Positions 14,228 through 62,054 of a stretch of DNA of 64,000 bases are shown one piece after another. The notes below the pieces were generated by a model that saw only the letters and a list, made by a program, of their open reading frames with translations, had not been told where the DNA came from and made no database searches. Source of the DNA: Heliopora coerulea (taxonomy: Eukaryota; Cnidaria; Anthozoa; Scleralcyonacea; Helioporidae). How positions within the stretch are numbered: position 1 is the stretch's first letter; every line of letters begins with the position of its first letter. The stretch spans positions 37,068 through 101,067 of the forward strand of contig JASJOG010000588.1 in NCBI GenBank assembly GCA_030142905.1, written 5' to 3'. The position numbers and the translations under genes were made by a program.

Positions 14228-15440
14228 CTAGTTGAAAAAAAAGAAAAAATAGTTTAAGAACCTATAAGAGCTAAGATGGCGGAAAGGAAACTATAGCAAC
14301 TCAAGTCATACTTTTTAGCGATATTGTACCATTTTCCTCATATTTGTGGCACTCGTTATTATAAAGAAATGCTTATAGCCAAGAGTATTCTTCACGTTAC
14401 TTCTCCAGCTATTAGGAATGTACATTACGAACGCTGCGGTTGCACAGCTTATTCTGGTAAAACAGTCACAAATTTAGAAATTTTCCATCCCCGCAGTGGT
14501 GAGAGAAATATTTTGTTTTTTTCTGCCGGATTAATGAAATCTTCAGAATTCTTGTCTGGTCAAATGCATTTGATTTTCACCAAAGCGACAGTCAAGAAGT
14601 AATATCGCGGAATTTTATGATCAGAAATTGGTATAAAACTGGTATAAAATATGTAGCCACTAAAAGCCACTGTCGAAATCTTTCTAATATTGCAAAATCA
14701 GTTTATTATTAACTCTGACTTATCAAAGGCGTACGAAGGGAGGACAGAGGGGAGAATTGTATCTTCGTACAAAAATAAGGGCACGACATTGCGATATATT
14801 ACATAAATTATACACATGATGCATATAAAAATATACGTACAATATATACATACATACATACTTACAAATACATTAATATTATAAATAAAGTAATAATTAT
14901 ATTGCTAAGGCCATAACTATATTATCCACCCTGTATATTGTTACACAGTCGTTGGCTTCATTTTTGTTATTTATTCAAGTTAACAATAGGGAATGGGAGT
15001 ACCATTAGTTAGGTTTTCCTTTCGGCATCAGTAGTGCTCACTACGCCACTTCGCAGTACTATTTTCTCTACAATTTATCCGAATAGGAACGTGAGCTAAT
15101 CGAGTAATTATAAAAAGTATATTTAGGAGCGAGAGCACTTTTAAGACCCATGACGGTTGCTAAAAATGCAACATAAAGATCTCTGGAGGAACTCATTAGC
15201 GTTTGCAATTTTACATCACACTGACCAGCAAGAAAATCTTATCAATGAAGTTAAGAAAAGTTAGCGCATGTAATGGGTAGAACTGCACGGTCCAACTTCA
15301 TACAGATGAAAATGTATAACTTGAGCTGATTTGGCATTTCAGCAACTTTTAGTTTTTCTTTCCTGCCTTCTCAAAATACCTCATGCAATTCTAAGAGCGC
15401 AAACCCAAATAACTGCAAACATTTCCCTCACGTTTCTTAC
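14228..15440. other. Gene 1 intron
   Basis: AT-rich, with a TATATACATAC run near 14820-14860. No exon or named repeat. Confidence 0.4.
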
Positions 15441-15757
15441 CCGAATGTCCAAACGAAGGCCTTGAGTTTTTAAACGAAACTGTCCAATTTCCATTCGGAT
15501 CTTCTCCCCAGTAGTGCAAGCTTGAAACCACCAAGTTCTTGTATTTGTTTCTTCGAGTTATGGCATCAAAAACACGTGGGTAAAGCAACTGCGATATAGT
15601 TCCACTCGGTGACGTTAAATACATCAACATGAAAGCACGGGGCAAAAACGTCAGACTCAGCTTCACCTTGACGTTTTCAATGTACTTAATCCTTGAACAA
15701 TTGCTATTCAAAGTCGTCTGTATTTTAAACTGTAGAGATTGACCGAAATTTCTTATT
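15441..15757 (-). CDS. Gene 1 main P/Homo B domain exon
   Basis: 317 bp, same length as its gene 2 counterpart. Contains LTSPSGTISQLLYPR, SLHYWGEDPNGNWTV and similar words, matching the P-domain pattern 'L.SP.GT...L..R...D' and 'W.EdP.G.W.L'. The P domain stabilises the catalytic domain in this family. Acceptor is TTGTTAAG after a T-run; donor is GTAAGA. Confidence 0.88.
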
Positions 15758-15875
15758 CTTAACAACAAAAAAAAAATATCAATGTCATTGATCTCAAAGG
15801 ACTTCATTCATGAAGTCTTAACAATAATCATCATTCAAAATCAGTTTTATGCAGATTAAAGTTTAAGCAACTTAC

Positions 15876-25143: not shown

Positions 25144-25149
25144 CGCTAT

Positions 25150-25367
25150 ACTACGAAGGGGAATGGACCGATTTGTCCCGCAGTTAGTTTGAACGACCTT
25201 AAGGCCAGTTAGCAGGGTTTTCGATGACTTGGGATTTCCAGGATATGATTGTCAGAATAAATGAAGGGGTTTTCGATAAGTTGGTAAACACACAAAAGGT
25301 CTTTACCAGAAAATAATAGGTAGTTGAAAATTCGTGTTGCCTACCCCCTTTGTTCTTTCTTATGAAG
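25150..25367 (+). repeat. Polinton-like left terminal inverted repeat
   Basis: Matches the reverse complement of 35228-35444 with scattered substitutions and small indels, including TCGATGACTTGGGATTTCCA and the AAACACACAAAAGGTC block. Confidence 0.92.
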
Positions 25368-25418
25368 ATAAAAAAAAAATACAATTCAGTGGTTTCCACC
25401 CCATTTGGTGTTGCAGAT

Positions 25419-26578
25419 TTATTGTTTTGATAATAGACGTTTCTCCAATGTTTTTTGTTGCTTCATCATGAAATCCATTGCATCAATGAATGGTATTCTG
25501 GTGTATCTTTTGCACACTTTCACCTTTTTACCATCATCACGGTACTGTATTTGAAGTTCTTTATTCTTCTCATCGTTCTTTATCGCCACCATTTTACCAA
25601 TTCTCTTTAATATTTCCCCTTCTTTTTCTATCTTAAAGCTGTACTTAATCGCGGGTTTATCTTTAATTTCATCGTTTCCACGTTTGTTCAATACTTTCGT
25701 ACCATATTTTTTGGCATACTGATTTATGTATTTCTTTTCGAATGATTCTAATTTATGTTTATTTTCATATGAACAGTCTATTACTAGTGATATTTTTGGA
25801 TCCTTATCTTTGTTGCTGTATACTATGCTCTTTTTTTTTCGGACATATGTTCTTTTAGCCTCATTTTTAGTGTATTTATTGTGGATTCGATGTATATACT
25901 GTTGTTGTCAAACTCTATTTTGTAAATCGTTCCATTTTTATATTCAGTATGGCCAATTGATCTCACTTCATGTTTGTTTTCTACGCTGTATGTATATATT
26001 TTCTGTAGATTTTCCACATGTATGATTTCAAATTTGGTTGTTCTACTTAATACCGTGTATAATTGTTTCTTATTCATGGCACCAGCATCTAGAATGTAGT
26101 AATGTTCGTCAATTTCAGCACCTTGGTATTTCTAAACAGTTATACAGAACGCAAGATTAAACTTCTTACTGAATTCATCCATTCCAAATGTCTTATCATT
26201 CCCTTTTATGGTTACACTTTTACCGCTTATTCTTTTCACAGTAAATATTTGAGAGTTGAACATTTCCCTGTCTTTCATATTGTCTATGCAAATAACAGGA
26301 GTCCCTGAATACACTTTGTACAGTTCTTTCTTTCCATTGTATGAGAAATTGACATTGATAGATCTTTTCCCATCACAGGAAGCATTAGAACTCATCTTGT
26401 TGACCCCAATGCTAGTGCTATTGTAGTAACATATGTTGACCATACTTCCTACATATTTTCCCATTTTGGGTTTTTCTTCCTTAATAGGTAGTTCTTTTTT
26501 AGGAGGCAAAGTGTCTAAATGCCTTATGGGTGGAATTATTGTATTGATTATTTTAGGAGAATCTTTCTTAACACCCAC
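25419..26578 (-). pseudogene. SF1 helicase C-terminus with GIY-YIG domain
   Basis: Decayed gene in several frames. The N-proximal part (26578-26132) contains GTPVICIDNMKDREMFNSQ, as in the nucleotide-bound core of Pif1/RecD-like helicases. Next, around 26080, comes YKYQGAEID, the 'KxQG' motif, and then QLYTVLSRTTKFEIIHV, motif VI. Downstream is GTIYKIEFDNNSIYIES followed by MRLKEH, a GIY-YIG nuclease fold in which the Gly of YIG is replaced by Glu. The last part (25691-25419) is a Lys-rich tail. The helicase Walker A half is not visible, so a deletion is likely. A role in element replication is inferred. Frame changes lie near 26100, 25820 and 25700. Confidence 0.7.
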
Positions 26579-27772
26579 ATAATTGACTGATTAATACCAA
26601 ACTTCATTCCTTCTGTTGCCACTTTTAATCCATTATTGTATCCGATTATTGGATTTTTTAATATGATTAAAGAGCTTGGAAGTAGCCATAATGAAGGTGA
26701 AACAACAGTGTTTAATATAACATTTGTATCACTAATGGCCTTATTCATAATGTTAATATATGTTGAAGTGTCATAGTTAATTATACTATCTTCAATTAGC
26801 TGTCTGAATACTTTTTGAGTCTCTAATGCAGACGCTCCTTCACCATATACACTTTGTTTTTTTCTTGCCTGGGCTCCAAGGATGCAGTAAATAAATGCTT
26901 CTATGGACTGATTCAACAGCTCTGTTCCTTTCTTTGTAAAACCATTGGACTTTGATGCTATGAACTTTTTGAAGTCATTTTTTAAATCCCTTATTCTCTA
27001 GGCACCATCCCATTTTCTTACACTCACAGATATATCTTCTGTATTTTCCACTTCTTGTCATGTCCAATGGGGAATATCACCTTTTAGAGCAGTTGCAGCA
27101 CCAAATGCATTTATTGGGTCTCTGTTACCTGTTTGCAATTCTCTCATTACCCTTCGTACGGTGAAGTAAATATGAAATCTCATTAGTGAAGTTATCTGTT
27201 TGGGTACATCTTGATGGAATGTTAGATGTTGGATAGACACCCCACAGACATAAGATGCAATCCATGCTCCAATAATACTCTGGAAATATGGTTGTTTTAT
27301 ATCAAATCTAGAATCTTCTGTGGGTCCTCCAATTTTATCTATTGTGATGTTTAACTCTGGTAATCTAGACATGAAGTAGTCTTTTCCATTGACATGCAGA
27401 CGGAAATTATTAACTGGATAGTTTAGAATATATTCTGTGGGAAATTCATGCCAATAGTATCCTTTACCAGTAAAATCCACGTCTTCTACCTCTTGGTAAC
27501 TCTTGAATTGTGCCGCCAGTATTCCATAATTTTGGAAAAATCGCTTTTACATTCGAATACAGGTATTTTGTCATTGATTTGTTATTTAGAAATGTGGCAC
27601 TTGTAATGTCTGTGCTAAGATATTGATTGTTCTTAAAGAATATAGTAGTGGAATCGATAGTACCGTCCTGATTAAGATCAACATCGAATTCAAATTTACT
27701 CAAATCGGCATTTGGATACTTTTTAAGGAATTCTACTTTCATTTTAGCTCGTTCTTCTTTACCATTTTCCAT
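26548..27772 (-). pseudogene. Polinton-like element protein, unknown
   Basis: A gene of roughly 400 codons broken into at least three frames (27772-27464, 27480-27058 and 26916-26548), with a stop near 27058 and a bad junction near 27000. Visible words include YYWHEFPTEYILNYPVNNF, IIGAWIASYVCGV and KNPIIGYNNGLK. I do not recognise the family. It is neither the family B polymerase (no DTDS-like motif) nor the integrase. It begins 77 bases from the divergent plus-strand gene at 27849, so a shared bidirectional promoter in 27773-27848 is likely. A structural or replication role cannot be decided. Confidence 0.5.
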
Positions 27773-27848
27773 AGCCTTGTCGTAGTTCTTTCCATAATAT
27801 TTTCTAAGAAGTTGCTCGATTATATAATATACAATATATTATAGAATC
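27773..27848. promoter_or_regulatory. Divergent intergenic region in element
   Basis: 76 bases between two divergent genes, AT-rich with TATATAATATACAATATATT directly before the plus-strand start. It is probably a bidirectional promoter; this is inferred from layout. Confidence 0.4.
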
Positions 27849-28493
27849 ATGAAAAAGATTTCTGTGCTAATAGAAGGAACCAATAAAGTGATCACTCTTG
27901 ACGAGGCGATTTTAATAAATTCAAACAATCCACACATATTGGTTAAAAAGGCCACTGTCTTTTGGAATTATGACAACATAGTTACTAGTGTTAATAATGA
28001 ACTGACCTATAATGGAATTAAGAAGACTATTGAACAAGTCTATTGGACATTCAATATGCTAAAAAAGGAGATTGAAGGTTATGGAACTGTTACTTTAGAG
28101 GCCAATGAATATGATGGAACATACTCTATTACCTCTGACAATGTAATAAACGTAAAGAACTTTGGTCCCATATTAGGGTTCAATAAGGACCAGGTAATAA
28201 GGGCTAACACAAAAACAAAAAGTGGTGGTCCAGTAAATATTAAGAATGGTCTGGAATACATAGAAGTCTCATGTAATCTGGTCAGAATGTCAGATAATAT
28301 TAATACAAATGGCAAGAGAAGTGATATCATGTCCACATTACCAATAACAACCACTCAAACATTGAAAGGAAGTGTTCAACATTACTTTGATATCGAGTCT
28401 AGAGTACCAATATTTAATGGTGTAGTAAATAGAATCGAATTTAATGTGACAAAAAATGTTAGAAATTTACTATTAGAATTATATATAATGTAA
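27849..28493 (+). CDS. Putative minor capsid (penton-type) protein
   Basis: Intact 214-codon frame. The size and a beta-rich pattern, with words such as TLPITTTQTLKGSVQHYFD and VPIFNGVVNRIEFNV, fit a single jelly-roll minor capsid or penton-base protein of Polinton-type elements. In such elements this protein would occupy the vertices of a capsid whose main protein lies at 33157-34390. It has no membrane segment and no signal peptide. The call is by size, context and general resemblance, not by a decisive motif. It is one of two genes here with no break, which is notable in an otherwise decayed element. Confidence 0.5.
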   Translation: MKKISVLIEGTNKVITLDEAILINSNNPHILVKKATVFWNYDNIVTSVNNELTYNGIKKTIEQVYWTFNMLKKEIEGYGTVTLEANEYDGTYSITSDNVINVKNFGPILGFNKDQVIRANTKTKSGGPVNIKNGLEYIEVSCNLVRMSDNINTNGKRSDIMSTLPITTTQTLKGSVQHYFDIESRVPIFNGVVNRIEFNVTKNVRNLLLELYIM

Positions 28494-28497
28494 TGTA

Positions 28498-29600
28498 TAT
28501 GGATATGGATAAAGACACAGAGTCAGAACAAAGTTTGAGAGATATTTACTACAATCCTAAAACTGGATACCAATCTGCACAAAGGTTATATCAAAAAGCA
28601 TTAGAAGATGGTTTAAGTGTTAGTAGAAAACAAATGAAAGACTGGTTAAGATCACAAGACATACACTAGATATAAACCAATTGTCAGAAAACACGAATTC
28701 AGAAAAACTAAAGTTAACTATCTTGGTGAGCAGATACAGATGGATCTCGTTGATATGGGTTCATATAAAAACAAAAATAAAAGTTATTACTGGATATTAA
28801 CAGCTATTGAAATTCTTAGCAGGTATGCATTCGCCATTCCTGTTTATAGAAAAGATACGAATAATATGACAAAAGCAGTCACAGAACTATTGAGGCAATT
28901 TAGAGAAAGATTTGGTCATTACCCTAAATTAGCTCAATTTGATGATGGAAAGGAGTTTTACAATATTGGTGTAAAATCGTTGTTAGAAAAACATGATATT
29001 AAGTATTTCTCCACAAACTCTGATAAAAAGGCAGCTATTGTAGAAAGATTTAACAGAACACTTAAAACTGCTATGTGGAAATACTTTTACAGTAAAGGAA
29101 CTTATCAATGGATTGACATATTGGACCAATTGGTGTATAATTACAACAATACTAAGCACAGCACCATATTAATGAAACCAAAGGATGTTAACAAAAGGAA
29201 TGAAGACGAGGTTTGGACCACTCTATATGGTTATCTCTATGCTGAGTCACCATTACCTAAATTTAAGCTAGGAGACACTGTCCGAATATCAAAATATAAG
29301 AGCATTTTCACGAAAGGCTATGAAGCCAATTTTACTAAAGAACTGTTCGAAGTGGTCAAGGTTATTCGTGGTCACCCTACAGTTTATGGAATAGAGGATC
29401 TAGAAGGTGAACCAATTATTGGGAAATTCTACGAAGAGGAGTTGTCGTCAGGTGTTGATAAAAAGGACGATGTCTATAAAGTTGAAAAAATACTAAAAAG
29501 AAAAAAGGTAAAAGGTAAAAAGATGGTTCTTGTCAAATGGTCAGGTTATGATAGTAAACATAATAGTTGGATTCCAGAAGATGATATACAAAATATATAG
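28498..29600 (+). pseudogene. Retroviral-type integrase with chromodomain (frameshifted)
   Basis: DDE integrase that would insert the element into host DNA. The N-terminal portion (28498-28668, containing YYNPKTGYQSAQRLYQKALE) ends at a frameshift near 28668; the catalytic part is open from 28740 to the stop. Catalytic residues are visible: Asp in QMDLVDM, Asp in AQFDDGKEF and Glu in AAIVERFNRT, about 33 residues after the second Asp. A C-terminal chromodomain (about residues 245-286 of the 28740 frame) reads VEKILKRKKVKGKK then VLVKWSGYDSKHNSWIPE, typical of Polinton and some Gypsy integrases and thought to steer integration to marked chromatin. Only one lesion separates it from an open gene. 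Confidence 0.9.
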
Positions 29601-30587
29601 TAATATACACAAAACATGGCTGAAGGAAGAGTTGATGAATATGAGATGCAAGACTTGGGTGAAAAATACTCTAAATATGATGAGATGAATTATGGAGAGT
29701 TAGTCAATGAATATTATAGTATACAAGATCTATTACTAAATGATGAATTCCAAAAAAATAATTCAGAACAATTTAGAAAATATGAAGAAACCCAAAATTC
29801 ATTATCAAAACTAATTCGTGAAAAGGAAAAGGATTCGTCATTTATAGAAAGTTATGATGGTAAAACAGTAAACATTGAAAAAAACCCATTCGATAGCACC
29901 AGTTAGATAGATGATGATATAACTTATCAACAGGATGACAAAATAGTCATAGGACAAAAGGGTAAAAAGGATAGTATTAATAATTTCATAGGCAACATAT
30001 TCAAACGAGATGGTAACTTTAGGGAAAACAAAAAAAAAAAAATAGGTGGAGACAATATGATTTCGTAAAACTAACCAGATCATTTCTTGCATATGATAGT
30101 GGCGGGGGAACTAGACCACTCCTTAACAATGAGATTGGGCATAATATTTTAAAGAATATTTCCTACAGCAGAGGTGGGGCATTACCTGATTTCAAAACGA
30201 TAATGAGTTACAAAGGTGTTGATGTAATCGAAGTCAATACCACGAGAAACATCCCTTCAAGGAGACTTAACCAAAATACACCAGAAGGTAAAGAGTTCTT
30301 TGGGTTAGTAAATAAACTATTCGGGTATACAAACAAAATTCTTGAAAACGTGTCTACAGAAACAAACAAACCAGAAGAAACCGTCAGGGAAACTGTCAAC
30401 GAAAACGAATACCCCAAGTATGTAGAATTTACAGATGATCAAATAAATGATATGGTTGAAGAAAAAACCACTAATCTTCCACCAGCATAACCACCTGGTA
30501 GTTCAGTAGATGATTTAAGAAGAGAACTACAAAATCTACCTCAATATGTAAATAATGATGATAGTGAATCCATCGAATTATCAAATA

Positions 30588-32442
30588 CAGTATAATCCCG
30601 TTAATTCGAATCAGGATAATTCGAATATTAGCGTAATTCGAAGCTCTGTGCAGGAACCGTTTTTTTCACGTACAATTTGCATGACGCAATTCGAACTTCC
30701 TATGACGTAATCAGTATAATTCGAAGTGTGATTTTGACTGTTACCAGCTGTAAAAGTTGTCGAAAATGAGCAAGAAGGCTGACTCCAAATACTATGCCAG
30801 GACATTCGAAGAGAAGCTCAAGGCACTGAAAGATGTGGACAAGGGAGAGAAGAAGTCAACTGTAGCGAAGAATCTCGGGGTGCCTCTCAGCACGTTGTCC
30901 ACGTGGATAAAGAATCGCGACAAGATCGAGGCAACAGTTTTGGCCACTGGATCGAGCGGACAAAGAAAAAGACAAAGAAACGGGCGTTTTGAGGATGTAG
31001 AACAAGCTCTTCTCAGTTGGTTTCGCGAAGCTCGCAGGAACAGCATTCCAATCAGTGGACCTATCATCGCGGCAAAGGCAACACACCTCGCTGAAAGATT
31101 GGACGTTGAAGATTTTAAATGCTCAGTTGGATGGCTAAACCGATTTAAGGCAAGACACGGAATAACGTTCAGGAAGATTTCAGGAGAAGAAAGGGAGGTA
31201 AACGATGCTGTGCTTTCTTTGTGGAAAGAAAAAATTGCAAGTGATATCCTTGAAAAGTACAGCCCTTCAGACATCTTTAATGCTGATGAAACAGCTTTGT
31301 TCTATCGAATGCTGCCAACCAAGTCATTTGTCGAAAAAGGTGACACCTGCAAAGGTACAAAGCAAAGTAAAGAAAGACTCTCTGTGTTAGTTGCTTGTAG
31401 TATGTCTGGTGAGCGTCTTCCAGTAAGAGAATTTGCCCACTGCATATGATGCCAACAAAAATGCCTGGATAACTGGAGTAATTTTTTCATCATGGATCAG
31501 GACACTTGACAAGCAGATGGCAAAGCAGAAAAGAAAGGTTTGTATGGTGGTGGATAATCGTACAGCTCATCCCCATGTATGTGATTTGACCAATGTGGAG
31601 CTCATTTTTCTTTCTCCGAACACAACTGCAAAATCTCAGCCTTGTGACCAAGGAGTTATTCATAGCCTTAAATCTCACTATCGTAGACAGGTTTTGGAGA
31701 AAATTATTCATCACATTGATCAAGGTCATGAAATGGAAGACATGAAAATTAATGTCTTGGATGCATCGAGAATCCTTCAAGAAGCCTGGTGTCAGGTCTC
31801 AGCCAACACTATTCGGAACTGCTTTCACCACTGCGGTTTTTTCTGTGATACAGATGAAGAAGATCTTGAGAATCCTCAAATTTTCAGTGCCTATGCTACC
31901 TTGCAGGAAAGATCCTGCATTCCTGAAGACATGGATCCAGAAGACTACCTACACATAGATGATGATGTGCCCACATGCGCCATGTCTACTGATGATGACA
32001 TTGTCGAAGCAGTTTTAAGTGCTAGGATGGAGAATGATGACGAACAAGATGATTGCTGCTTGGTGCAACACCAACCCATCAACAAGGCAGAAGCATTTGA
32101 GTGTATTGACAAACTTAAAATGTATTTTGAACAATGTGATCATTTGTCTGATAGCCCCATATCAGCTTTCGAGTATCTTTCCAAAGTACGCAGTGAATTG
32201 ATGCAAACTAGAGACAAGACTAGACAAAGTACACTGGACCAATTTTTTAAAAAAGTTTGAATATTAACTTCATGCAGTATTAGTTTTCATGTTTTCGACA
32301 TATATATGCTTTATCATACTACAGTAATGTTATTCATTGATATTCTTCTTGCATATTAATGATGTTCTCCTAATTCAAATGTATGGATAATTCAAACCTT
32401 TTGTCTTGGCCCGAGGAGGTTTGAATTAACGAGATTATACTG
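30588..32442 (+). mobile_element. Tigger/pogo DNA transposon, nested
   Basis: TIRs are CAGTATAATCCCGTTAATTC at the left and the complement of CAGTATAATCTCGTTAATTC at the right, flanked by TA (30586-30587 and 32443-32444). It is inserted in the membrane-protein pseudogene of the Polinton-like element, so it is younger than that element. It holds one transposase gene. Confidence 0.93.
30757..32260 (+). pseudogene. Tigger/pogo transposase with internal deletion
   Basis: Cut-and-paste transposase with DNA-binding and DDE domains. The N-terminal CENP-B-type HTH (KALKDVDKGEKKSTVAKNLG ... LSTWIKNR) is followed by a second HTH (VGWLNRFKARHGI). The catalytic acids are visible in FNADETALFY, VVDNRTAHP and SQPCDQGVI. 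The frame is lost near 31420-31440: the sequence jumps from MSGERLPV to a shifted frame with TAYDANKNAWITG, and about 40 residues usual in this family are missing. The C-terminus (31433-32260) is otherwise open. Long frames suggest the copy is fairly young. Confidence 0.88.
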
Positions 32443-33156
32443 TATACCGGATAACAGCATAGATCAAATAGTTTCAGATTCAACAGAGAACATACGTGCA
32501 AGGTTACAAGAAAGAGCTCATATCATCGAAGGATTAACCATCAGTGACCATGAGCTAAGAGAGTTTTCAGGAATCTTAAGGCCGGTTGGTAATACTGATA
32601 AAAAAAAGAAATACTCGACAGTGAAACAAATGTATATAGATTAAAAGCCTTGAGAGAGGTGGATAGCAGAAAAGAAAAACTTTATAAAAACATATCTGAA
32701 GCTCCAAATTTAAAATCTGACTTTATAAGAGTAGAAGAAAAGTGTGAATGAGCAGAGCATTTTGAAGCGACTGAAATAATAGAAGAAACAGCAGATGATA
32801 ACGAATCAATTAAGGATCTAACAAGACTAGAACGTTTCAAAAATTGGGCTAAGGAAAATTTAGTCGGTATCTCTGCATTAGCAATCTCCGTCGCTGGCAT
32901 TATAACAACAATCATCGCGGGCGCTGGAGGGCTATAGCTCAAGGTGCTAAGGCCACTAGTAAATTCGCTAAGGCTGTATACAATCTTGGTAAAAAAACTA
33001 GGTGGACTATTAGCACCGTTATTAAACATCATTGCCCAAGCCATATCATGGGGTGCTAAAGGATTGGCGTGGCTGGCGAACAATCTATGGCTTCCAGCGT
33101 TAGCGGTGACATGGTTTATCTACGACCAATACAAACAACGGAGAAAGAAATAAAAT

Positions 33157-34390
33157 GTATGTCATTATATATACAAATGAATAGAACAGAGTTTGAACTT
33201 GAACCTGGATTCAGTAGGTTGGAAAAGAGTACAATAACTGGTCAAACAACGAAACATATTGTAACATTGGAAGGTCATACCGAAATAACACCAGTTGTTT
33301 TGATTTGTCGATCAGTAACACTAAAACTCATTTTCTAAACAATCTTCCCAAGCTTTTGCAAAGTAAGTTGAAAATCACTTTGGCAGGCAAAAATTTATAT
33401 GAAAATGATGCAGAAAGTGTGTATAGCATATATAAGGACCTCTACAAATCAAAATCACAAAGAGGAAACATGAGTCAATATGGGGTTGGATCAACTAACC
33501 TAAGAAAGCTTATCAGTAAAGACGACTCTGGGGCAACAAGTGGAAACACCATAAAGGTATCTGAAAAGTTGTTGTATGGCATTTACGGTACAAAACAGAA
33601 AATATGTTTAGATAAAATCATCGGTAATCATCGGCTCTATCCACCATATGATATGAATCATAATTTCAAATACCATATCAAGTTTCCCAAATGAGAAGAA
33701 ATTTTGGTTGCACAAAACTAGTCAAACACGGGGTGATAATAAAATGGAAAATGTTAAAATGGAATATGAAACTATTGACCACATTGACATTGCCGGAAAT
33801 ACTTCAGATATTTACTCTGTTGGATTATCGTTATCATATGAATGTGTCAAACTCGACAAAGGAGGAATATGGCAGCAAATTTAACTGTGAAAAATCAAAC
33901 TATAAATACACCTCTAAAATCCATCAAAGCCGTCGTTCTTCTGTTTACCAAAAATTCGGGAAGGACAGATAGTGAAGAATTCATATACCCAAACATCAAC
34001 GAAATTAAAATGGAAATCGGTGGAAAGTCAAATAAAGTATACTCAGACCATTTTGAGAAATACAGATTTTATGATGAGGCATTGAGACTACTAGGTTCCA
34101 AAGATGAAAAGGACCAATATATGACTCCAGAAATGTTCTACAAAGACAAGTTCGCGCTTGTAAACGGTCTCAGATCTATCGAAGATATCCAGAAAACAGG
34201 AAATGGGGTAAATGCTATGAATGACAATAAAATTTCACTACAGATCAAAAAGAGTTCACATACAGGAGAATTAAAATGTTATACCTTCTTAGTGTACGAC
34301 GGTGTCAACAACATTATACAAAAAAGGTGGATGTCATTCAGAACTAAATACAATGTACTATATAGATGGAAACACCATTCAACATGATCA
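33157..34390 (+). pseudogene. Major capsid protein-like (double jelly-roll) pseudogene
   Basis: Would form the hexon-type shell of a Polinton-encoded particle. It is broken into three or more frames: a start region near 33178-33310, then 33305-33694, 33691-33850, and a longer 33842-34387 frame. Landmarks are FKYHIKFPK, NQTINTPLKSIKAVVLLF and EEFIYPNINEIKMEIGGKS; the last two match the second jelly-roll of Polinton major capsid proteins, as I recall the family. It sits just before the ATPase fragment, the usual capsid-packaging neighbourhood. At least three frameshifts make it inactive. Confidence 0.65.
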
Positions 34391-34641
34391 TTTGTGGTAT
34401 GACCAATAGTGGAAAGACATATCATTAAACAAAAATATGGGGAAAATATTTTATGAATCACTTTGACTTTATCATTTTAATATGTCCTACCTTCTCATGG
34501 AATAAAACTTATCAACAATGGAAATATAATAAAGATCCAGATCTAGTTACTATTGAGTGTGTACAGGAACATGTCGACAAAATATTACACGTTATACAGA
34601 CCATAAAATATGACCATAAAATTGTTATTTCGCAAAAATAA
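34382..34641 (+). pseudogene. Packaging ATPase (FtsK/HerA-type) fragment
   Basis: Starts MIICGMTNSGKTYH, with the Walker A motif GMTNSGKT, then a stop, then FDFIILICPTFSWNKTYQQW, matching the N-terminal part of Polinton and adenovirus-type DNA-packaging ATPases. It ends near 34641 without Walker B and the arginine-finger region, so roughly the last half or more of the gene is missing. Confidence 0.72.
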
Positions 34642-34663
34642 AATGTACGTTATTATATAGACA

Positions 34664-35227
34664 ATGTCACGCCGCAAAAATACCAAACTTGAAACAACTG
34701 ATGAGGTAACTGAAGAAATGGCATCCGCTGGATCTTATTTCAATGAGGAAGTTAATAATATATTCACTACTGAACTAATAAGACCTGAGTTAGTTGAACC
34801 TAAAGATGACTCCTCTGAATATGAAAAGAAGAGAGATGAACTTTTGAAACTTGCAGAAGATGGCGATCTTGATAAATCTGTTGCATATATTAAGAAAGCC
34901 AGCCATAAGGTCATTAATAAATTATACACGGAGTACGAACGCAAAAGAATTCTAAAAGCTAATGTGTTCCTAATTGATCTTTTAATTAGTAAGTTTTCCA
35001 ACGCTTTGGGAGGTTTTGATGCAATTGAGTCTCCTGATGTGTTGGAAAATGAATTAAAAAAAGGTGAATTCTTAAAAAAGAATGTCCAGTCATTAATAAA
35101 GAAAATCACACCATATTTTCCATTTATTGGTATTTTGTCAGGTGGGATCACAACAGTCAAGCATGTATATGACCACAAATCCAAAACACAGAATCCAGAT
35201 ATCACAAGTGACACAAACACAGTCTAG
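34664..35227 (+). CDS. Unknown membrane-anchored element protein
   Basis: Intact 187-codon frame starting MSRRKNTKLETTD. It is charged and helical for about 150 residues, with a Lys-rich segment KKNVQSLIKKI, then a hydrophobic stretch PYFPFIGILSGGI at about 155-170 and a polar tail. The stop lies right at the inner edge of the right inverted repeat. I do not recognise a family. Its position after the ATPase and its single membrane segment suggest a virion or membrane-interaction role, by context only. Confidence 0.55.
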   Translation: MSRRKNTKLETTDEVTEEMASAGSYFNEEVNNIFTTELIRPELVEPKDDSSEYEKKRDELLKLAEDGDLDKSVAYIKKASHKVINKLYTEYERKRILKANVFLIDLLISKFSNALGGFDAIESPDVLENELKKGEFLKKNVQSLIKKITPYFPFIGILSGGITTVKHVYDHKSKTQNPDITSDTNTV

Positions 35228-35444
35228 TTCATGATGAGGAACAAAGGGCGTAGGCAAAACGAATTTTCAACTGCCTATTATTTTGAGGTAAAGACCTTTT
35301 GTGTGTTTACCAACTTATCGAAAACCCCTTCATTTATTCTGACAATCATATCCTGGAAATCCCAAGTCATCGAAAACCCTACAAATTGGCCTTAAGGTCG
35401 TTCAAACTAATTGCAGGACAAATCGATCCATTCCCCTTCGTAGT
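35228..35444 (-). repeat. Polinton-like right terminal inverted repeat
   Basis: Complement of 25150-25367. The short open frames inside both copies are not genes. Confidence 0.92.
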
Positions 35445-35450
35445 CCCTAT

Positions 35451-44462: not shown

Positions 44463-46205
44463 CTAGAATTTAGTTACAGAAAGAGCATCACGTCAATTGA
44501 GGTAAAAAGTACAAAGGATGGTAACTGAATTCTAGGAATTCTTTGAGATCAGTCACGATAGTTACCAACCTTTGAACTTTTTACCTAATTTAACAATGCT
44601 TACGTAGTATTCTACTTTTATATCATTTAATGTAAATTACTATTAGCCAGTAACATCGCTGCTTCTAGGATTTAGCGGGGAAAAGAGCAAGATTTTCCGG
44701 CACTTTGTTTCTTGGGTCAAAGACGTAAGCAGATGCAATAATTTTACGAGGTATCTTTTACCTAGAAAACATTAGCATGTTATTATTTAGCATGCATTTT
44801 CGTAGTAGTCACTCTTTCATGCATCACATATTCAAATGAGCCGTGTCGCTAGGATACTTTTCTTGAACACAAGCAAACGTCTACACAACCGAGATTTTCT
44901 GAAAAAAACGAAATCTTGCCCAGTAACACTGGATTCCTGGGACGGCCACAGCTTGGTCAACGCCAAGCTGTCCCAAAATAGAGTCACACTTTGTCTCAAA
45001 GGTTTCTTCACAGCGGTTACACCCATCTTTGGATCTACCACTTCAATTATTTCACGCTGCTTTACTTCCCTGGAAAAGTTCCGTGTGATTTTATTCCAGT
45101 TTTTGATTTTCGTCCTTTTCTGATGAATCAAGGAGTAATGAAGTACTGTTATCTGGGCCTCAGTATCGCTCCTACACCTGCTGGACACTGGCAAAAGTTT
45201 ACTCAACAGAGCACTGTTTCGAACTGTTCTCCTCAGAAATTTATAGTAATCAGGTTTAAGAAATTTCTACTTCCTGCCATTAATTCCAAAATGTTCCTCA
45301 TATCTCCATTAATGGTTCGACGTTATTAAAATCTTCATAATAGTAAAAAAAAAAAAAAAAAATATTCCCATTTCCGAGACACTAATGCTGGGGGAGGGCT
45401 ATGGCCCCCTAGGAGTTTGCACTTTTTCGCAATAATTTCAATATATCTCATCATTTGTGATACTGCATCAAACTACTGAGGATTTCAATAAATGGCGAAA
45501 AATCCCGATTTATTCGATTTTAGCTGGCCCACGGTCCCATTCCTTTCGTCTCTTATGTTTCTGACGTTCACTCATGACCATTATCTGTTAAAGGTCCTCA
45601 TATGTCGTTGTCAGTCATAATTAATTATTAACCAAGTAAGTGACGTCTGTACGGAAAAGTGTTTGCCTGATGTTTTCGTACAGATCAAGTGATGAAAGAG
45701 CGAGCCCTGCACGAAAAAACCGAAGTCAAATGCTTTCCTTAAATGACCAAACAACCGAGGTTAATAAAGTATTTATTACATGGGTTTTGGTCCTTTCCTT
45801 CATCGCTTTTAACTAACATTAAAACAAACTTGAATCTAGTTCGTTTGTCTTTCTACATGGAAAACTTATTCCACGACTAGATAGCCAATCAACGCGCATC
45901 ATTTTGTGCACAGACCGTATAACGAACTGAGCCGCATAATAATGTGAAGTATTTATAAAGGATAAATCTAACGTCTACAACACAGTCTTTAAATTGCCCG
46001 CCAGCTGCCCACCCATGTAACTGCAAAAGATTCGAAATGTTTTTAAAATTAGAAAGTCGTGTTTTTTTACAATGGCTGTCAAAATATATAAATCCGCACT
46101 TATGAAACAGAGATTCGAATAACCATAAGAACGGCGTAATCCTAACGGAAAAGACGATCACTGCTAATCGAAGACCGCTTTCATGTTAATTTCGTTATCA
46201 CTTAC
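44463..46205. other. Gene 2 intron
   Basis: No second exon recognised. The plus-strand frames at 44836-45329 lack motifs. An A-run lies at 45344-45362. Confidence 0.4.
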
Positions 46206-46522
46206 CATTTCCTTGAAAGTCGTCAGACAACCCATTTTTGACAGTCACAGACCATGTGCCCAGAGCCGGTTCGCCCCAAAAGTGCAAACTTGTAGTTACT
46301 AAATTGCTATAACTCGTTCTTTCTGTTATAGCATCATACACGCGTGGATAAACAAATCTGGATTTCGTGTTGGATGGTGAAGTGACGTCAATGGCGATAC
46401 CACCACGTCTTGAATACTGCAGATTTACTTTTAGTTGCACGTGTTCTAGACTTTTAATTAGTCCATCTCTACACGAGGACTCTCTCAACGTCAAGGAAAG
46501 TGTGACTGGAATCGGTTTATCT
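46206..46522 (-). CDS. Gene 2 main P/Homo B domain exon
   Basis: 317 bp, identical in length to gene 1's exon. Reads RDKPIPVTLSLTLRE, then SRRGGIAIDVTSPSNT and SLHFWGEPALGTWSV, the P-domain pattern. The acceptor TTATAG was chosen because the frame stays open from the preceding exon. Confidence 0.88.
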
Positions 46523-47185
46523 CTATAACATAGGAATTAGTTTCATGACGAGGCTCCCTGCAGTTTTCTGTTCCAAACCAGCAATTAAAAGACAGCTAAT
46601 TTCAGCAACGCTAATTATAGATATGGAAACTTAAGATGAGCTTTTCAAAAATATAACTAAGCTATTCTATCTTTACAAGAGCTAAACGACTCGAAAATGA
46701 ATCAAAATTCTTTTGGACAGTAAACTAACGCTTCAAAGAGCCAAACGAACATTACTCCTAAAAATAATAGCAACGGGAATTTGTCTTTTTGGTCGCCTTC
46801 TGGTAGGCGCATTTATATCAAGGATATACAGTTTATATTCCTAGTTATCAATTCTAAAACTCGCCTAAGTAGTAGTCAACGAACATAAGAGTAGTAACGC
46901 GATGACTTTACGTGAAATCTACAGCAAGTTTAAACGCATCTCTAATATACACCTTAATTCGACCTTAAATTTAGTGCGAGATGTTTCAGTTGAAAGGGCG
47001 TAACTGCGTTACGGTCTTATTTTGATAAGGATAAAGATGCGCTTCATCTCCTTTTATAATTGCGCAAGACAGGAATCATGACTAAAAAGTGAGCATCGTA
47101 TGTTCTAACACGACCTTAAAACGAGGAATTGTATAAGTTGTTCGCGAATTTCATTGCAAAATTATAATTTAAGCAGTTCTCTTAC

Positions 47186-50679: not shown

Positions 50680-51710
50680 TTAATGCCCAGCTCAAAATTC
50701 GAATGTGAATAGCCATAACAGGATAAAACACGACAAATAACAAAACATGTTAGTTTAAACAAGCTTTACTGACGTTTCGTTGCTAACGCGCAACATTTTC
50801 AAAGTAATATAGATGATGGATAAGGTAAGGTTATAAATACGATATTTACAAGGTGTGAAAATTAATTAGCCAATGAGAGAGGAGAAAAGGTGTGAGAAAA
50901 GTAGAAGAGGAAGAGCGGAAGGAGAGAAGACTAATTAAAATAAGGCAAGCGGAACAGACCTGATGTTCTCATTAAGGACAGGCTTAAATTTATCAATGAG
51001 TAAACTCTCCCGAATGAGTAACTCAAGGGGCGAGTTACCGGACGAAATAATAGAAAAGTCATCGGCGGAGATGCTGTGATGAGAAGCTTTGGTGTGAGAA
51101 AGGATGCTAGACAGGCTAGTGTAAGATCTTTTCTTCCCCGTTAAAGGCGAGATTCCTAGGTGTTCAGAGATGCGTGTGTGTAGAAGGCGTCGAGTTTGCC
51201 CTATATACGATGCTCCGCAGCATCGACACGTGTATTGATAAACAACATGCGATCTCATTAATTTAGGAATGCTATCCTTGAACCGGAAGAAACTAGACAG
51301 ACGTTTGTTAGACTTAAAGATAACCCGTAGCTCAACTTGAGGAAAACAGGAGAGAAGTTTTGTTAACTGTGAACGGATATGGAGGCAATGTTTCCCCGTA
51401 AATGGCATAGAAAAATAAATGATACGTTTCGAAACATCGTAATTTTTAGCGGAAACTGAAAAAACTTTATCAAGAAATTTACCAAAACAAAGGTCAAAGA
51501 AGGGAGTAGGATACCCATTGTTAGTGAGAAAATTTTTGAGCTTGATGACTTCCGAATGAAAGATGTGGTAGGAGGAGCATATCTTAAAATATCTGTCGAG
51601 AAGGGTGTAGACAAGTCCACGTTTAAATGAAAGTGGGATAAAGCTGTCAAAATTAGTAAAAAGTCCCGAAAAAGTACGTTTACGATAAACCGAAGTGGAA
51701 AAACCGCCAA
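50680..51710 (-). mobile_element. Penelope-like element copy 1 (5'-truncated)
   Basis: Left arm of a large palindrome. It encodes the distal part of a Penelope-type protein on the minus strand and ends in a non-coding tail (50680-50930) with GCTAACGCGCAACATTTTCA. It extends about 165 bp further toward the 5' side than copy 2. Confidence 0.85.
50935..51700 (-). pseudogene. Penelope-like RT C-terminus and GIY-YIG nuclease, copy 1
   Basis: Open on the minus strand through the reverse-transcriptase thumb region (STSVYRKRTFSG, SFIPLSFKRGL, ICSSYHIFHSEV) into the linker and a GIY-YIG endonuclease (VVYQYTCRCCGASYIGQTRR then RISEHLGIS), ending at a stop at 50935. GIY-YIG plus RT is diagnostic for Penelope-like elements. 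The fingers and palm of the RT are absent. Confidence 0.85.
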
Positions 51711-52320
51711 GCTCAAAAATTTTCTCACTAACAATGGGTATCCTACTCCCTTCTTTGACCTTTGTTTTGGTAAATTTCTTGATAAAGTTTTTTCAGTTTC
51801 CGCTAAAAATTACGATGTTTCGAAACGTATCATTTATTTTTCTATGCCATTCACGGGGAAACATTGCCTCCATATCCGTTCACAGTTAACAAAACTTCTC
51901 TCCTGTTTTCCTCAAGTTGAGCTACGGGTTATCTATAAGTCTAACAAACGTCTGTCTAGTTTCTTCCGGTTCAAGGATAGTATTCCTAAATTAATGAGAT
52001 CGCATGTTGTTTATCAATACACGTGTCGATGCTGCGGAGCATCGTATATAGGGCAAACTCGACGCCTTCTACACACACGCATCTCTGAACACCTAGGAAT
52101 CTCGCCTTTAACGGGGAAGAAAAGATCTTACACTAGCCTGTCTAGCATCCTTTCTCACACCAAAGCTTCTCGTCACAGCATCTCCGCCGATGACTTTCTA
52201 TTATTTCGTCCGGTAACTCGCCCCTTGAGTTACTCATTCGGGAGAGTTTACTCATTGATAAATTTAAGCCTGTCCTTAATGAGAACATCAGGTCTGTTCC
52301 GCTTGCCTTATTTTAATTAG
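51711..52320 (+). pseudogene. Penelope-like GIY-YIG nuclease, copy 2
   Basis: Same protein region as copy 1 from the LKNFLTNNGYP segment through CGASYIGQTRR, but a frameshift near 52195 replaces the normal C-terminus (SPLELLIRESLLIDKF in copy 1) with unrelated residues. Confidence 0.83.
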
Positions 52321-56761: not shown

Positions 56762-57446
56762 GTGCACCTTTTGCTGTTCATTACCAGAAAATATACTATC
56801 ATTAACGCCAGCCTCAAATTCATTCGCGCAAAAATGCATTCATTTTATTCAATCAACATTCACTAGGGTGGATACGCAACCATTTGCATCGAAAGGCATT
56901 CTATAGCGCCAACAGACGACCATTAACACCATTCTTCGATACATTAGGGATAATAAACTTCAATTAGGCAAGATATATCTCTTGCATAATTAAAATTTTA
57001 TTTTATCTTTATTACACCTTTTGTCGTTCATTACCAGAAAATATACTATCTTTAACGCCAACCTCAAACTCATTAACGCAAAAATACATTCATTTTATTC
57101 CATCGACATTCATTAGCGTAGATACGCAACCATTTGCATCTAAGCGTATTCCATAGTGCCAACAGACGACCATTAACATCATTCTACAATACATTAGGGA
57201 TAATAAAATTTCAATTACGCAAGATATTTCTCATGCGTAATTGAAATTTTATCATCCTTAAAGTATAGTACAAAGGTGTTAATGGTCGTCTGTTGGCGCT
57301 GTGGAATGGCCCTTCAATGCAAATGGTTGCGTATCTACGCTAATGAATGTCGATTGAATAAAATGAATGTGTTTTTGCGTTAATGAGTTTGAGGTTGGCG
57401 TAATGATAGTATATTTTTGGTAATAAAGAGCAAAAAGTGTATTACA
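56762..57446. repeat. Three-copy foldback repeat
   Basis: A unit of about 230 bp (from CACCTTTTG, through CATTACCAGAAAATATACTA and CAACAGACGACCATTAACA) occurs twice in direct orientation (56762-57000, 57011-57245) and once inverted (57250-57446). The last two make a long hairpin. Non-coding, MITE-like. Confidence 0.85.
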
Positions 57447-61412: not shown

Positions 61413-61742
61413 GAGAAAGTCATCCTGGTGTATGTAATAAACTCATGACAGTCTATGTAGAAAGACATCCGCTTATGATTAGCTTGAGTTTGTCCTCGAC
61501 GCTCGCTTCAATTAAACACATACTCCAAGATGTGAATCGCAAGGAACAAAATAACACGTGTAAACAGCCCTTTGAGGGCGGTTGTCACCCTGGTGTATGT
61601 AATAAACTCGTAACAGTTTATAAAGCGACATATCCACTTATGATTAGCTCGAGTTTGTCCTCGACGCTCTCATCAGTTAAACACATACTCCAAGATGTTA
61701 ATCGCAAGGCACTAAATCGCACCTGCAAACAACTCTTTAAAG
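61413..61742 (+). repeat. Tandem 165-bp repeat with conserved open frame
   Basis: Two units (about 61413-61577 and 61578-61742), roughly 85 percent identical by eye. An open frame 61364-61816 runs through both, each unit encoding HPGVCNKL and HILQDVNRK. It is inside a gene 2 intron. No family recognised; it may be a simple tandem repeat that happens to stay open. Confidence 0.7.
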
Positions 61743-62054
61743 GCGTGGTAACCGAAAAGCAGGCCGACTCTCAAAATTCATATCTGAGTCACTTTTACCT
61801 ATATATTCTCCTCTGACACACGAAAGAGACACGAAATATTCTCACCTGAAGATATATCTTATCGAAATAGTCTTTCGATTAGTCCCTACCAAGCGACTTC
61901 TAGTCTTATTTGCATCCCGACCTGTTTCGTGTTTTGGTACAAATTCTTTTTATAATTTTGTTATGTCATAAATGTATAACATCTGATCAAAAAATAAAGC
62001 CGCTCCCACTGAAAACTCCATGCTGTACCAGACGTCTTACTAAACGCCACTTAC

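Follow-up and report, generated by a model that had tools for sequence, protein, structure and literature searches.

A degraded integrating element in Heliopora coerulea keeps the end of a helicase-nuclease gene whose long relatives carry a polymerase-like front

How can an element carry the ends and the integrase of a Polinton and show no DNA polymerase? This question is raised by a locus in contig JASJOG010000588.1 of Heliopora coerulea, within a stretch of 64 kb that was analyzed as a whole and is called the window here. The element is real: it measures 10.3 kb from one terminal inverted repeat (TIR) to the other (Table 1), its TIRs of 217 nucleotides (nt) each agree at 202 of 217 positions (93%), and it is flanked by a 6-bp target duplication, the length found in Polinton/Maverick elements. 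Long TIRs and a 6-bp duplication had been proposed in a first-pass annotation made from the letters alone, and both hold, with one difference between the two copies of the duplication (5 of 6 positions match; CGCTAT vs. CCCTAT). Damage to the copy includes frameshifts, stops, an inserted pogo-type transposon and one or more deletions.

The answer begins on the minus strand, where three pieces (26135-26590, 25826-26131 and 25422-25907) all match one family of large proteins. The middle piece joins the end of a superfamily 1 (SF1) helicase to the start of a GIY-YIG domain in one open frame, confirming the annotation's description of a helicase C-terminus continuous with GIY-YIG. The closest relative of this remnant, the protein P0121, is 63-71% identical to its pieces, and the match begins at P0121 residue 205, which corresponds to window position 26467. 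At the other end, the stop codon of the fusion gene is separated from the inner border of the left TIR by ∼50 bp. Compared with a longer relative, P0124, the kept portion covers residues 995-1337 of 1337, about a quarter of the protein. The remnant has further defects: an in-frame stop separates the helicase C-terminal half from the middle piece, a frameshift places the last piece in a different frame from the piece that it adjoins, and a direct read shows Glu in place of the YIG Gly of the relatives.

The relatives were collected by protein searches. In one, the query was the middle remnant piece, padded with X to reach long relatives, and 6 of 29 candidates passed; in the last, the query was P0124 (1,337 residues), one of those six, and 99 of the 7,988 proteins scored passed. 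Many members of this fusion family are 1,220-1,340 residues long, and in the longer ones the region upstream of the helicase has the motif order of B-family polymerases. The first six relatives fall into four with palm motif C (P0122, P0124, P0125 and P0126) and two without it (P0121 and P0123). To count residues we used an alignment (profile A2) of 41 of the 103 proteins P0121-P0223, chosen with a preference for long rows. Palm motif A has Asp in 41/41 and Tyr in 40/41 rows; motif B has Lys in 41/41, Asn in 39/41 and Gly in 41/41; motif C has Thr in 37/41 and Asp in 40/41, with Asn as the preceding residue in 34/41. In the helicase, the Lys of Walker A and the Glu of Walker B are each present in 41/41 rows and the Arg of motif VI in 39/39 non-gap rows; in the nuclease, the Tyr of GIY is present in 39/39 and the Gly of YIG in 37/38 non-gap rows. 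Upstream of the palm, an OTU-like part has Cys in 39/39 and His in 40/40 non-gap rows.

Domain searches identify the helicase and nuclease parts of these proteins. The helicase is an SF1 domain of the Pif1/RecD kind, one relative having a Pif1/RecD2-like fold, and helicases rank first when profile A2 is searched against the PDB; the two helicase pieces searched alone gave no PDB match up to E 10, and P0133, another relative, gave only three weak, unrelated rows. The GIY-YIG family PF01541 was matched by P0122 at E 1.3e-8 and, with E values of up to 10 allowed, by 10 of the 27 members searched.

Is the front of this gene hidden elsewhere in the window? We ran tblastn against all 64 kb with nine fusion-family queries, eight of them palm-bearing, at E 0.01: the sole match was 26467-25428, and nothing else was matched. 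That the matches are confined to this interval bears out the annotation's remark that the helicase N-terminus is missing. Between relatives, the palm is conserved about as well as the part that the window copy kept, from slightly below to slightly above it (palm vs. kept part: 62% vs. 59% for P0124, 69 vs. 60 for P0147, 35 vs. 42 for P0197, 29 vs. 36 for P0206), so a surviving palm should have shown up. Of this gene the window copy retains nothing upstream of the C-terminal half of the helicase, and it is unable to make the replicase itself. The apparent absence of a polymerase is probably explained by the makeup of the long relatives: in them the polymerase would be the front part of the helicase protein, the part lost here. 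We infer that the palm was present in the ancestor of this element. The annotation had offered two alternatives, a polymerase deleted from this copy or descent from a lineage that uses another replication module; because the long relatives have a one-polypeptide replicase and the window copy lacks its front, the evidence favors both at once rather than either alone.

The second main gene, on the plus strand, is an integrase. Translated from 28650-29597, it matches the Pfam rve core (E 4.8e-9) and Chromo (E 5.2e-13), as expected from the chromodomain integrase of the first-pass annotation; its N-terminal part lies at 28505-28666, in a different frame from the core. An alignment of 19 integrase sequences has the invariant columns D32, D35, D98 and E132, which presumably include the catalytic triad. 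A protein search passed 4,197 of 4,607 candidates as integrase relatives, the closest among the matches listed being 85% identical, and among the best 120 of the 4,197 the one relative that bears an organism name comes from the octocoral Paramuricea clavata.

The architecture of the long relatives has a published counterpart. Passages of PMC11071308 (this and the other papers are cited from excerpts) describe Tlr1-like helicases, fusions of a protein-primed family B polymerase (pPolB) with an SF1 helicase (pPolB-S1H), as a variable N-terminus, a viral OTU domain, a protein-primed palm with an altered first Asp in motif C, the helicase, and a C-terminal GIY-YIG or HNH nuclease. The relatives of the window copy resemble these proteins of polinton-like viruses and transpovirons in domain order, in the changed first Asp of motif C, in the Cys and His at the OTU position and in the C-terminal homing-type nuclease. 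In the same passages, Tlr1 of Tetrahymena codes for an RVE integrase and a Tlr1-like helicase that replaces pPolB, while RVE integrases are said to be absent from most polinton-like viruses, unlike the window element, which has one; an excerpt of PMC3671162 likewise has the Tlr1 helicase fused to GIY-YIG. A polinton-like virus of the alveolate Oxyrrhis marina also combines SF1 helicase and pPolB in a single polypeptide, which is fragmented in most cases (PMC12721341, in part), but there the helicase is N-terminal and an exonuclease is kept, whereas in the relatives of the window copy the helicase is C-terminal of the palm.

Within a single TIR pair, and in this element only, we find an RVE integrase together with the remnant of a Tlr1-like helicase. 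The SF1 helicase and C-terminal nuclease are seen in the relatives, and the remnant is homologous to the nuclease and to the C-terminal half of the helicase; the upstream palm is seen in relatives and in neither the window copy nor P0121. The likeness to Tlr1 of Tetrahymena thermophila consists of the RVE integrase and the SF1 helicase-GIY-YIG gene, of a family with an upstream palm in place of a separate pPolB gene, and is one of description, not of sequence comparison; Tlr1 differs in coming from a ciliate, whereas the content of the window is animal-like, and in that the window copy has lost all of its gene upstream of the helicase C-terminal half. We consider it likely that the element is what decay and deletion have left of an integrating element of the Tlr1 type (a polinton-like provirus); Tlr1 elements are the group in which it is best placed.

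Several observations weigh against this assignment. The palm-bearing relatives are only about 35-53% identical to the remnant pieces, and P0121, the closest relative, begins where P0133 has its residue 549, between palm and helicase, with no palm seen; it may either be cut before the palm or have none. P0123 likewise has no palm (its start is equivalent to P0133 residue 523). Profile A2 omits 62 of the 103 proteins, including the seven weakest (P0217-P0223), and P0218-P0223 show no palm A, B or C string by text patterns. Applied to all 99 rows of the last search, such patterns gave 70 rows with strict motif A, 86 with motif B and 77 with a motif C-like string; in 55 rows, palm C, Walker A, Walker B and motif VI follow in order, and 52 of these rows have a GIY string after them. 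Some of the misses are proteins cut at one end, though not all are accounted for in this way. No polymerase occurs among the 7 Pfam families of P0133, among the best 25 of 76 Pfam rows for 27 fusion members, among the best 50 rows of either of two PDB listings for the relatives, or among the best 60 of 64 PDB rows for profile A2. The capsid and ATPase identities in the element are putative, and integrase and fusion gene are seen linked in a single, damaged element only.

Attempts to find that linkage elsewhere gave the following. Eight queries (3 integrases, 5 fusions) produced 35 matches on 20 IMG/VR loci, all by fusion queries (P0124 10, P0133 20, P0203 2, P0206 1, P0212 2), with the P0133 matches confined to residues 543-902, the helicase; the three integrase queries had no match on the 20 loci. 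Other scans of IMG/VR for sister copies gave no relative, nor did a GTDB scan with the fusion alignment. No contigs of equal length, which could have linked integrase relatives with fusion relatives, were seen by eye in listings that show only the longest contig of each cluster.

Could the element instead be an ordinary Polinton, whose separate family B polymerase gene was deleted here and whose helicase-GIY-YIG gene is accessory? It shares with Polinton/Maverick elements and animal adintoviruses the TIRs, the 6-bp duplication and the RVE integrase. Besides an RVE integrase, bona fide polintons have a separate pPolB (PMC11071308, in part), and none is seen in the window element, which is a deleted copy; the very large number of integrase relatives and the palm-less frame of P0121 would also fit. 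However, the remnant shows homology along its entire length to the C-terminal end of polymerase-helicase fusions, and neither the eight palm-bearing queries nor Pfam searches of 30 pieces found a trace of a polymerase elsewhere in the window. We regard this explanation as improbable. Equally improbable, in our judgment, is that the deleted form is a non-autonomous family that has spread through the genome with what remains of the helicase and depends on intact elements acting in trans: the TIRs and the duplication were kept despite the loss of the replicase, but no second copy of the element was found within the 64-kb window. A chimera, in which a Polinton acquired the end of a Tlr1-type element through recombination and whose integrase and fusion come from different lineages, is very improbable, since, common as gene exchange is among such elements (excerpts of PMC3671162 and PMC4642659) and single as the locus is from which the linkage is known, the stop codon beside the left TIR is in a plausible native position and Tlr1 itself pairs an RVE integrase with a Tlr1-like helicase replicase (PMC11071308, in part).

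If the element is a deleted Tlr1-type provirus, an intact one would carry the RVE integrase with its chromodomain and, on the opposite strand, one large replicase ending beside the left TIR. From N- to C-terminus this replicase would consist of a variable part, a viral OTU-like domain, a protein-primed B-type palm, a Pif1/RecD-type SF1 helicase and a GIY-YIG nuclease. Its N-terminal part may prime synthesis at the TIR ends; the palm, if active as a polymerase, would copy the linear DNA, with the fused helicase opening the strand in front of it, and the OTU-like domain may process a polyprotein. The integrase would insert the linear product through a 6-bp staggered cut, with the chromodomain possibly steering it to chromatin and thereby influencing the choice of target. 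Virions may also be formed.

How widespread might such elements be? Five of the 99 fusion relatives are named by organism, and all five come from the stony coral Montipora foliosa, on contigs of 39-66 Mb, which suggests that Tlr1-type replicases, reported from a ciliate, polinton-like viruses and transpovirons, also occur in animal genomes. We put forward tentatively, with belief and doubt nearly balanced, that animals host widespread, partly intact Tlr1-type proviruses with one polymerase-helicase-nuclease polypeptide, a motif C without the first metal-binding Asp, and a chromodomain integrase. If this is true, surveys of family B polymerases by Pfam-type models would miss the lineage and call such elements polymerase-less; since the Pfam listings show no polymerase in the fusion proteins, catalogues of "polymerase-less" animal elements may need re-examination. 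The oddity of a Polinton without a polymerase would become a testable statement, namely that the polymerase is part of the helicase gene.

The annotation had named the locus as its best candidate for an under-described system. This is only partly apt: the architecture is already in print under the names Tlr1-like helicase and pPolB-S1H fusion (PMC11071308, in part). Literature text searches, which did not cover a 2016 paper devoted to the fusion, found no description of it in animal chromosomes. An animal member may already have been seen, as Hydra magnipapillata is one of the species that the Figure 7 legend of PMC3671162 gives for the trees of the helicase and of Tlr 6F. Passages of PMC10120064 report many protist elements without a detectable polymerase, with helicase domains fused to a domain of no known identity, and state that, of the metazoan capsid genes, those of cnidarians alone fell outside the main Maverick-Polinton cluster.

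Table 1. Features of the element and its flanks, in window coordinates (aa, amino acids; ORF, open reading frame).
Feature	Position	Strand	Remarks
Left target-site duplication	25144..25149		CGCTAT
Left TIR	25150..25366	+	202/217 identical to right arm
Fusion gene, C-terminal piece: remaining GIY-YIG and tail	25422..25907	-	70% over 98 aa to P0121 residues 409-506
Fusion gene, helicase motif VI and GIY-YIG start	25826..26131	-	single open frame; 71% over 100 aa to P0121
Fusion gene, helicase C-terminal half	26135..26467	-	ends at presumed deletion junction near 26467
Decayed ORFs (26551-26997, 27061-27546, 27467-27838)	26551..27838	-	no Pfam match
214-aa ORF	27849..28490	+	single-sequence model mean pLDDT 30, uninformative
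RVE integrase with C-terminal chromodomain	28505..29597	+	single frameshift near 28650-28666
ORFs interrupted by nested transposon	29616..30587	+	
Nested pogo/Tigger-type transposon	30588..32442	+	∼26-nt arms, TA on both sides
Broken ORFs, position where a capsid gene could lie	33178..34384	+	
Putative packaging-ATPase fragment	34384..34638	+	Walker A about 34396-34419 (direct read)
187-aa ORF adjoining right TIR	34664..35224	+	
Right TIR	35228..35444	-	
Right target-site duplication	35445..35450		CCCTAT

The remaining genes of the element are less informative. The 30 pieces scanned with Pfam, one of them the nested transposase, gave no match to a polymerase, capsid, Ulp1-type protease or packaging ATPase. 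The capsid-type proteins of the first-pass annotation could not be confirmed: they have no Pfam match in the pieces scanned, two of the ORFs have no relative in IMG/VR, and the one structure model is of very low confidence (Table 1). For its packaging-ATPase fragment, a Walker A motif can be read in the DNA, while the piece that follows (34429-34638) has no Pfam match above the cut-off; the fragment contains one in-frame stop and is cut off at about 34641. The nested transposon (∼1.86 kb) lies within the plus-strand genes and matches Pfam HTH_Tnp_Tc5, CENP-B_N and DDE_1, its transposase being split over two overlapping frames. The ORFs that it interrupts may continue after 32443.

A 29-nt direct repeat (90%) with the core TTATATA.ACAA occurs at 33148-33176 and 34636-34664, in each case directly 5' of the ATG of a plus-strand ORF (about 33178 and 34664); the ATPase-like ORF ends inside the second copy. 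The core has no further occurrence on either strand of the window, and the repeat may be a gene-start element.

Outside the element, Pfam recognizes a galaxin-like repeat and two proprotein convertase P-domains, content that we take to be animal-like and probably that of an invertebrate. The P-domain ORFs (15394-15807 and 46201-46536, both on the minus strand) are ∼30 kb apart and flank the element on either side. Two ORFs on opposite strands, 50938-51792 (minus) and 51631-52320 (plus), have long identical protein stretches in common and are perhaps a retroelement end present as an inverted pair; the former has a GIY-YIG match (E 0.0011) below the Pfam cut-off. Long-period tandem repeats of about two copies each lie at 56765-57252 (period 250 bp) and 61419-61745 (165 bp).
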